Positions 3,101-6,100 of a DNA stretch of 64,000 nt are shown piece after piece. This DNA is from Paracyclopina nana. Lineage: Eukaryota; Arthropoda; Copepoda; Cyclopoida; Cyclopettidae. Positions within the stretch are counted from its first letter, which is position 1; each line of letters starts with the position of its first letter. Location of the stretch: the NCBI GenBank assembly GCA_019096065.1, contig JAGUCH010000009.1:3978001-4042000 (forward strand), read 5' to 3'. Made by a program: the position numbers and the translations under genes. A model generated the notes under the pieces. The model was not told the DNA's origin, searched no databases, and saw only the letters and a program-made list of their open reading frames with translations.

Positions 3101-6100
3101 GAAGGCAACTGCCAACTGATTCCAAGGATATTCACCCACCCCTGAATTGACCAACACAATGTAAAGTCAAAATATTTTATTGTTGTACATAGTTTATACA
3201 ATGAGTTCAGAAATAGAGATGGGAGAAAATTCAGAATGCAAAAACTTGCCATCAATCATTGAGCTTCCATCTAAGCTACTTATGGTATACAGTGGAATGG
3301 GAAACTTTTTGTCAATGGCCACAATACGAAATACTTCATTAGCAAATTGTTCATGGTAGGCTCTCTGAAACCTAGAAGTTGGTTTTGAAATCAAAACAGT
3401 TTGTCCAATTTTAAACTTTGGTTTCTTGGATTTCACTTTTTTATATTTCACTTCATTGAGTCCACGCACTTGTGTTTGTTTCATTGCACTTGCTTCTACT
3501 TCATTGGGAGTGCATTGCAAAGATCGATGCTTGGTATTGTTGTACAACTCTGTAAGTTGGCCAAGAACATCCACAAACTTTGAGGTTTGATTTTCAAGCA
3601 AGTACTTGGAAATCTTTACTTGAATGGTCTTTTGAAAGCGTTCAATCATTGCTGCCTTCCCCAATCTTGTTGGATGATACATTTCAATACCATGCTTTGC
3701 TAGATAGGTCTTCATTTTCATATTTACAAACTCTAAACCCTTGTCACAAGTAAGAACTTTAAAATCACCAAGGTGAGTTTGGTGCAAGTTGGTGAATGCA
3801 GCCAATACTGCATCAGCACTCTTTTTTTGGAGGGGAACACACCAAGCTTTTTTGGTGAAGCAATCAATGACAGACATGATGAAAGCATACCCATCATTGG
3901 TTTCTTCTTGACGATGAAAGTAAAACAGATCTAGGGCTAAGGTTGCGCGGGGATGATAAACATAAATAGGAATATGTTGCTTTGCTCGTCTAGATTCACG
4001 AAATTTAGCAAAAGAATCATATTTTTGGAGGAGTTTTTCAATTTTTCTGTGTGACAATGCCTTGTCCAAGTAGTTGTAGATTTGCTCTACACCACCATAG
4101 CCAATGGGGCTTTTGTGGCTGAGGTAAAGCTTATCCAGAGACATTAGCTTTTGTGTGTGAGGTCAACAATGGAGAAACACTTCTTTTTTTCCTCTTAAAA
4201 GTTTTAATGGTAGCTTCACGAAAGGCTGTGGCTTCTGAAGCACCCTGTGCTTCTGAAGGCACTGCCCCGGCTAAGGTAGTGACATGAGAGTCTTGATTGG
4301 TGTGCACAAGACCAGATTGCATGGACCCAGTAGTTTTGAACATTTTCAACTTGAAACGTGTGATCGCTTCTTTGCCGATGCCAGCAATATCTTGAACATC
4401 TTTGTTCTTATGAATACTCTTTAAGTGACTGTAGTAATCATCGTCTCTCAATTGGGCCAGAGCAATTTGAACTTGAAGCTGAGATTTTGATTTCAGCTGA
4501 TCAATATGCTGTTTTCTTTGCAAAGGACTAAGTTTGGAGCGCTTAGTTGCAATCTCCTTGCGCACAAAGTCTCCAATATGACCGGCCACAATTGTGGCAG
4601 GTGAAAAAGAATGATCACTTTTCATGGCAGCCAAACGTTTCTCAATCTTGATGGCATCTTGACGCTTGATGCCAAGCTTCATGGCAAAGCGAAAGGCCAA
4701 CTGTTGAGGCTCAATATCAACAGACTCTGGAAAAAACTGTTTAGTTTTCCTCTCCATTCTTTGCTGCACACATCCAGAAGCTCCAGTCATTTCTCTCAAG
4801 GTGAGTGGCACTCCCTCGCGCTTCACTGATTCCATAAAGCATGCCGCAAAGAGATCTTTGCAAGGTTTAACCTTATGATCTTTGCAAGTAGAATTGAACA
4901 GCTCATTTGCATGCTCACCAAACCTTTCAGGGAGCCCAATGCGATTGCACAGCTCTGCAGCATCCATATTGTCCTCATACAATGCTGATGCAAATGTCTG
5001 TTCTTCCCTCTCTTCATCATCTTTGAGTTGATAAGGCTGGAAAGCAAGACTGCCCAATTCTTCGCCGCAATCCGTACAAACAGTAGCAAAGCCATCAACA
5101 TTTTCAACTGTATTGAAGTGTGGACATCCAGAAGCAGATTTGAGAGATTGTGCAGACTTGCGAAAGTGCTGACCAACTTCAAAAAAGTCCAAGACTTTGA
5201 GACAGTCTAAACACTTGGTGTACATGCCATTGGAGCTGTCCTTGGTTCTCGGATGCAAACATCCAGAATTGCCAATCTGACTTGATTGACAAAGTGTTGA
5301 CATTGTGGAACAGTCTTGCAGCCTAGAATCACAAGTTTTTTATTACGAAAATAAAACAACCCTGTGGGTCCTCCAACGGAGCCATGGCTCTGGAGTTTTA
5401 TGCACACTCCAGAATAGGACTCGCGATTCTGTCTTATCCAAATATGGTTGTGTGAGGAGTGAAGGAGATGATGTAAAATAGCTTGATCAACTTGGGGAAG
5501 AGTGGTGGTGACTGAAAGATTGTCAATCACAAAATCAGACAAGTTTGCATCCCCAACCAATGTTTGTAATGTGTCAATTCCATATTGGATGCTACCATGA
5601 TTTTTTATTCCAGTGAGATTGACATGATGACTTGCATGCTTGCCCAACTTGAAAACACTAAGTCTCAATTTGTCTCCACTCACAAATATTAGCACAAAGT
5701 TGTTGTAGTGTCGAACTGTAAAACCCCTGTCTTGACATCGCATCAACAAATCAGACATTGACATAGCACTGCAAGTGACATGACCCTTGATGTTGACAAC
5801 ACACAAAGGCTCTTGAAACATGCTGATGAGGACACTGTTCTTAAGAAACCATGCTTGTTACAGTGACTGCTCAAATGGATTCAAAGAATTTACCAAGAAG
5901 GGTGGGTCTTGGCTCATTGAACTCTGATGAGAATGTTCTCTTTTCTTCAAGGCTAGACCTCTTCAAGCCTGAAAAAATAGATGCATCCATCATAAATTCA
6001 AATAGAGTCCAGTACTCCACCCTCTCTCCCTTTGATGGATCAGTTGATACAGCAGGGAGAGTGTACTCATTTTTAGTGACTCCCCAGGGAACGTCCTACA

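Follow-up and report, generated by a model that had tools for sequence, protein, structure and literature searches.

In the genome of Paracyclopina nana, several Polinton-type elements form a group that carries a linked TBP-TFIIB pair, and the two genes are neighbours in each of the six lineages found. We infer, with a probability of roughly two in three, that the pair serves as an element-specific promoter-recognition module for host RNA polymerase II (Pol II). The element TBP would bind short promoters of element genes, and the element TFIIB would bridge this TBP to host Pol II. Together, both factors would build an element-specific initiation complex in the nucleus, and expression of the element could be independent of, or preferred over, promoters served by host TFIID/TFIIB, perhaps for a late gene class such as the virion genes. 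On balance, we also favor the broader view that these virus-like elements, in which no RNA polymerase was found, possess a complete and dedicated TBP-TFIIB module that assembles its own initiation complex on host Pol II alongside that of the host, an orthogonal promoter system in the animal nucleus that six deeply divergent lineages have retained.

The window, meaning the whole stretch of 64,000 nucleotides that was analysed, corresponds to C9:3978001-4042000 of the 92-Mb, 10-contig genome. Its features are as follows:

2348..25015, no strand: Polinton-type element of 22.7 kb with termini AGTAGTC...GACTACT
2348..2735, plus strand: left terminal inverted repeat, from the inverted-arm comparison
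24628..25015, minus strand: right terminal inverted repeat, from the inverted-arm comparison
2342..2347 on the left and 25016-25021 on the right, no strand: target-site duplication TATACA, 6 bp
3194..4144, minus strand: integrase (rve, retrovirus-type), Pfam rve E 1.5e-7, with a score of 32.1 bits just below the cut-off of 32.6
4131..5303, minus strand: TFIIB-like gene, 390 aa
4329..4967 (about 4728-4967 and about 4329-4709), minus strand: two cyclin-like repeats of the TFIIB-like protein, with approximate limits from the A2 alignment and profile span
5067..5261 (5202-5261 and 5067-5126), minus strand: two zinc-ribbon patterns of the TFIIB-like protein, C-x-H-x13-C-x2-C twice
5207..5821, minus strand: TBP-like gene, 204 aa
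5822..5850, no strand: divergent gap of 29 bp between the first ATGs of the TBP-like gene and CAP1, candidate shared promoter region
5851..7245, plus strand: CAP1, conserved 464-aa ORF and capsid candidate, with relatives in other lineages
9217..9531, minus strand: part of a packaging-ATPase-like gene, from its tblastn relation to ORFs of L048 and L049
10989..14430, minus strand: spliced putative DNA polymerase B gene (polB) with five GT-AG introns
13380-13431, 13138-13197, 12729-12778, 12397-12448 and 11843-11893, minus strand: the polB introns, GT-AG
15009..16673, plus strand: CAP2, conserved 554-aa ORF and candidate second structural protein

The two inverted arms (2344-2735 and 24628-25019) are 99% identical over about 390 bp. 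The element displays the marks of a Polinton/Maverick, namely terminal inverted repeats, a 6-bp target duplication (TATACA) and a retrovirus-type rve integrase, and these bear out the Polinton context claimed in the original prediction. AG...CT termini are typical of Polintons as well. The adjacent, overlapping minus-strand pair that had been described was also found in place, with an overlap of 97 bp, between the integrase and CAP1. CAP1 is 26-28% identical to its relatives in lineages B1, B2 and E, and its profile (A4) found no capsid match in the PDB. The ATPase assignment is drawn from a related ORF, L048:3348-4019, which matched AAA_22 (2.6e-5) and Pox_A32 (0.0044), both under the Pfam cut-off. 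The C8 and C2 copies share 90% identity with CAP2 across residues 25-554. The right-hand 6 kb of the element contains a single ORF longer than 120 aa, without a Pfam match. No Pfam match to an adenovirus-type protease was found among the window ORFs scanned; lineage D has such a protease at L050:3267-3842 (Pfam Peptidase_C5, over cut-off). Rfam gave 0 matches within the window.

Relatives of the element were found in the same genome with the window proteins and Pfam families as queries. There are 14 TBP-like loci in six lineages, and a TFIIB-like sequence adjoins each of them:

Lineage A, three loci: C9 (in the window), C2 and C8
Lineage B1, one locus: C3:5.88 Mb
Lineage B2, three loci: C1:14.73, C2:2.20 and C7:6.96 Mb
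Lineage C, three loci: C1:1.07, C2:14.45 and C2:2.00 Mb
Lineage D, two loci: C1:16.40 and C3:9.66 Mb
Lineage E, two loci: C9:0.81 and C9:0.83 Mb

The order CAP1 (-), TBP, TFIIB, integrase (+) is seen in the window and in the eight other stretches read (L046-L053). An extra small ORF precedes the integrase in lineages C and D, and the lineage D CAP1 was recognised by eye via its lineage C relative. The integrase is conserved in the five lineages aligned. Identity between most lineages is about 20-40%. Frames are intact at 10 of the 14 loci, and the TBP and/or TFIIB frames are broken at four (all three of lineage C and one of lineage E). All three C copies (L005, L030, L032) lose the TFIIB frame at one common position, so that the break either predates their spread or represents a frame shifted on purpose. 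The TBP frame is also broken in C2:2.00 and C2:14.45, and both frames are broken in the second E copy. Alignments show that both TBP repeats and both cyclin repeats have been kept in the five full lineages. Additionally, the pairwise identities of TBP, TFIIB, integrase and CAP1 co-vary, as is expected from long co-inheritance (Pearson 0.84-0.96 in five lineages; the ten pairs are non-independent, B1-B2 drives much of the correlation, and the lineage D CAP1 entry is the larger ORF only). Lineage B2 also carries two adjacent IAP-type genes (L049:190-780 and 1007-1543), each with BIR and RING domains over the Pfam cut-off.

Taken singly, the two window proteins gave scores that are suggestive only of family identity. 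The TBP-like protein alone matched Pfam TBP at E 0.025 (14.8 bits, cut-off 22.9) and the NCBIfam TATA-box-binding protein at E 0.0034 over residues 20-182 (16.9 bits, cut-off 181), and no TBP was listed when this sequence was searched against the PDB. The TFIIB-like protein alone matched Pfam TFIIB at E 0.18 (12.3 bits, cut-off 23.6); 6 of its 7 PDB matches at E <= 10 were TFIIB (E 0.0013-0.013). Such weak scores might suggest that two unrelated small proteins resemble these factors by chance. The probability of this is vanishingly small, as it is refuted by profile and fold for TBP and by profile for TFIIB, and the pair is conserved. At the level of sequence, it is the paralogous elements in the same genome that settle the identity of both proteins.

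Profile A1 was built from 8 TBP-like rows of six lineages, of which three are lineage-A copies with at least about 92% identity. Further B2, C and D copies and the broken second E copy were left out of this profile and of its TFIIB counterpart, A2. Against the PDB, A1 found 37 sequences at E <= 10, and 34 of these are named TBP or TFIID. Together with 4wzs_D, which is named ECU04_1440 and which we take to be a TBP, they span E 2.5e-15 to 2.8e-9, and the remaining two matches have E 0.48 and 1.1. Pfam TBP was matched by all 8 rows at E <= 1 (best 7.4e-11), and its cut-off was exceeded at 10 of the 14 TBP-like loci, the three A copies and B1 being below it. Two TBP repeats can be delimited, at residues about 5-95 and 96-191. 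The AlphaFold2 model (mean pLDDT 74) is a two-repeat saddle, and all 29 PDB matches of its fold search at E <= 0.001 are TBP entries, at 12-18% identity to the solved TBPs in the fold alignments. The claim of a TBP with two TBP-type repeats is therefore upheld by the profile, by the predicted saddle and by fold matches to TBP only, and the protein is assigned to the TBP family on sequence and a predicted model. An alignment search with TBP found two public proteins among 2204 candidates, P0001 (3,672-bp contig, E 1.2e-19 against the element TBP profile) and P0002 (1,103-bp contig, E 2.0e-12), which indicates that related TBPs exist elsewhere.

Profile A2 contains 7 TFIIB-like rows of five lineages, three of them lineage-A copies; the broken lineage C was left out. 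It gave 14 PDB matches, of which 11 are TFIIB, archaeal TFB or TFIIIB70, and the 3 others have E 0.03 or worse. The best match is human TFIIB at E 6.1e-25, across both cyclin repeats. No unrelated family appeared as the best match of either profile, these being TBP for A1 and TFIIB for A2. All 7 rows matched Pfam TFIIB at E <= 1 (best 4.6e-10), and the cut-off was exceeded at one locus, B1. The protein is thus assigned by profile comparison to the TFIIB family. A Brf-type (Pol III) identity was considered and is not supported, as A2 is nearer to TFIIB than to Brf. In the genome, the score of A2 was 72 bits for a 186-aa piece of host TFIIB (identified by its human TFIIB match, E 3e-80) and 20 bits for the host Brf1 frame (identified by its TFIIIB70 match, E 1.8e-68), and in the PDB human TFIIB at 6.1e-25 compares with TFIIIB70 at 0.0048.

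The finer structure of this protein agrees with the original prediction in part. The two cyclin repeats stood, by profile sequence. The zinc ribbons are seen as patterns, and Pfam Zn_Ribbon_TF was found in 2 of the 7 rows, with lineage E under the cut-off (22.1 vs 29 bits). Lineage A has the doubled pattern C-x-H-x13-C-x2-C, at residues 15 and 60, and the other five lineages have a single C-x-[CH]-x(12-13)-C-x2-C pattern; the spacing in the zinc ribbon of cellular TFIIB is C-x2-[CH]. No B-reader/B-linker motif was recognised by eye in the alignment, and space exists for it between ribbon and core. The single-sequence AlphaFold2 model of the TFIIB-like protein has a pLDDT of 38.8. In lineage A, the second cyclin-like repeat (4329-4709) contains an insertion of about 40-45 aa that is absent from other lineages. 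The lineage-E protein (L026:1691-2869) has a long basic C-terminal extension, part of which resembles, by eye, the small ORF that separates TFIIB from the integrase in lineages C and D.

Because the pair adjoins the integrase, a role in replication or integration can be imagined, with the TBP-like protein as a marker of the termini and the TFIIB-like protein as the recruiter of polymerase or integrase. There is no known reason, however, for a TFIIB with a zinc-ribbon pattern and two cyclin repeats in such a process, and nothing in this analysis connects the pair to replication. This role is very unlikely. Overall, the observation of a TBP-TFIIB pair in a Polinton-type element is confirmed, and the first reading of its identity, context and adjacency is supported by profile, fold and paralogues.

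The question of which polymerase the pair would serve is illuminated by polB. The split places of this gene correspond in the window, C8 and C2 copies, with GT...AG borders at 15 of 15. The introns measure 48-62 nt, the differences in length from copy to copy are often not divisible by three, and intron sequence and length drift between copies while the positions correspond. A broken polB in the window was considered and rejected, since split places and GT-AG borders common to three copies mark introns. The motifs DFNNLYG, NANYG and DTDS, read by eye in the exons, are presumably those of DNA polymerase B; the polB pieces had no Pfam match. Spliced genes imply nuclear Pol II transcription, and the spliced polB thus points to transcription in the nucleus by host Pol II. 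The Pfam scan of 19 window ORFs gave no match to an RNA polymerase, and open stretches in the element reach at most 567 codons. Taken together, the spliced polB, the lack of an RNA polymerase match among these ORFs and the preference of A2 for TFIIB over Brf1 make host Pol II the likely partner of the element pair.

The same evidence bears on an alternative in which the RNA polymerase of a co-infecting large DNA virus transcribes the element, as in virophages, and the pair supplies its promoter factors. The Foldseek matches of the TBP-like model include large DNA virus TBPs (Heterosigma akashiwo virus, Terrestrivirus and Marseillevirus LCMAC201), and a giant virus and its virophage have regulatory elements in common, according to the available part of one report (PMC11464507). 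However, the corresponding polB introns in three copies indicate nuclear Pol II transcripts, and the TFIIB-like profile is nearest to human TFIIB. We regard transcription by a co-infecting virus as quite unlikely.

Comparison of the window with the C2 copy gave dN/dS values of 0.175 for TBP and 0.172 for TFIIB, along with 0.062 for the integrase and 0.071 for CAP1. The two lineage-E TBPs gave 0.313, and synonymous sites were saturated in the B1/B2 and C/D comparisons. Both genes of the pair are under purifying selection in lineage A, the lineage tested. The host has its own TBP and TFIIB genes and frames are broken at 4 of the 14 loci, which would fit captured host genes kept as functionless passengers. 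A dN/dS of about 0.17, a fixed order and 10 intact loci in spite of about 20-40% identity render this highly improbable. A different function is conceivable, namely host shut-off or a decoy, with the pair occupying Pol II or general factors and lowering host transcription. Dominant-negative action is conceivable for divergent factors whose fold persists while the surfaces for their partners are lost, and the two IAP-type genes of lineage B2 make host manipulation plausible. Yet none of the five full lineages has lost a TBP repeat or a cyclin repeat, and the partners are kept together, though one of them would suffice for a decoy. A decoy is therefore considered unlikely, and the promoter-recognition module for host Pol II remains the preferred reading.

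A census with three integrase queries against the genome showed that incomplete copies occur. Three rearranged elements derived from B2 (L056-L058) were found:

C7:4631635-4649530: rearranged B2-derived element
C9:2262487-2280390: rearranged B2-derived element
C3:1718804-1736697: rearranged B2-derived element

Each of them contains two oppositely oriented integrase loci at a distance of about 16-17 kb, and only a C-terminal stub of TFIIB. One junction was read per element; beside the stub it lacks about 3.8 kb of B2 sequence corresponding to L049:1911-5684, from the ATPase through most of TFIIB, and it retains the IAP-type stretch. No TBP match was listed near two integrase fragments (C3:9.03 Mb and C6:6.42 Mb) or near a TFIIB-like remnant (C5:4.87 Mb). 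The pair thus occurs in every lineage found, though not in every copy. Additionally, two elements of about 21 kb, C3:938686-959243 and C3:8272220-8293684 (L042-L045), have the inverted repeats of the window element, and their end stretches gave no match to its genes. The ends of C3:938686-959243 are mutual inverted copies (99.3% over 7.8 kb) and consist of right-end repeat DNA with a period of about 285 bp. These two elements are possibly giant palindromic non-autonomous derivatives.

The divergent arrangement of TBP and CAP1 that frames the 29-bp gap is also seen in lineages B1, B2, C, D and E. A search of 11 regions upstream of window-element genes established no promoter motif shared by the genes of the element. 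The best 6-mer, TCTTAA (4 of 11 regions), was equalled or bettered by 49 of 1000 random draws and drops to 3 of 9 once one side of each shared gap is removed. In B1, E and D, a single gene each has TATAAA upstream, at 41, 62 and 147 bp respectively, which suggests that some promoters there could use host TBP. No gene in A or B2 has TATAAA within 150 bp upstream.

If the proposed function is correct, a Polinton-class element sets its own promoter choice while borrowing the host polymerase, and the pair would represent an orthogonal module for Pol II initiation that exists in nature. Being compact, it would also lend itself to working out which surfaces of the two factors are essential. The pair would further bear on how TBP and TFIIB were acquired by those large DNA viruses that possess an RNA polymerase and are regarded as relatives of Polintons.

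With its AG...CT termini, 6-bp duplication, rve integrase, polB motifs and packaging-ATPase-like gene, the element is similar to Polinton/Maverick elements and adintoviruses. Unlike those in the open-access literature searched, it has TBP and TFIIB. No Polinton with such a pair was found in the open-access PMC literature searched, subscription journals being mostly outside this scope, which is consistent with the earlier claim that no TBP plus TFIIB module had been described in a Polinton. The available sections of two adintovirus papers contain no mention of TATA or TFIIB (PMC8363768) and of TATA, TFIIB or TBP (PMC11244446). No relatives of the window proteins were found by single-sequence search of 5.8 billion proteins, nor any match in IMG/VR viral contigs by single-sequence search or by alignment searches with TFIIB, TBP, integrase and CAP1, nor in phage records with the TFIIB-like protein; these scans rest on few short patterns and do not imply absence from other Polintons.

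Proteins of the same families are encoded by the host, whose genome contains TFIIB, a TBP at C3:5.095 Mb and a second TBP. The latter (C1:12294725-12295313; PDB TBP matches E 4e-31) looks, in our judgment, like TBPL1/TRF2, and its presence beside the host TBP suggests a bilaterian animal. Among other elements and viruses, TATA-binding proteins are reported from elements with mirusvirus-type capsid genes in the accessible text of PMC10675990, and TFIIB is treated as a giant-virus marker in that of PMC12638062. As in the element, both factors occur in one virus among large DNA viruses; in the part of PMC11464507 available, a megavirus encodes TBP and TFIIB together with eight RNA polymerase subunits. 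Poxvirus VITF-3, as presented in excerpts of PMC12917281, is likewise a virus-encoded TBP/TFIIB-like heterodimer, called atypical there, but it serves the virus's own RNA polymerase, and no RNA polymerase was found in the element. The viral TBP/TFIIB pairs known so far work for viral RNA polymerases. For the TBP mimic ORF24 of KSHV, the portion available of PMC12529657 describes a requirement for a C-terminal domain beyond the TBP fold and a predicted structure incompatible with direct TFIIB binding, and the abstract names no viral TFIIB; its likeness to the proposed element module lies in a virus-encoded TBP fold working together with host Pol II.
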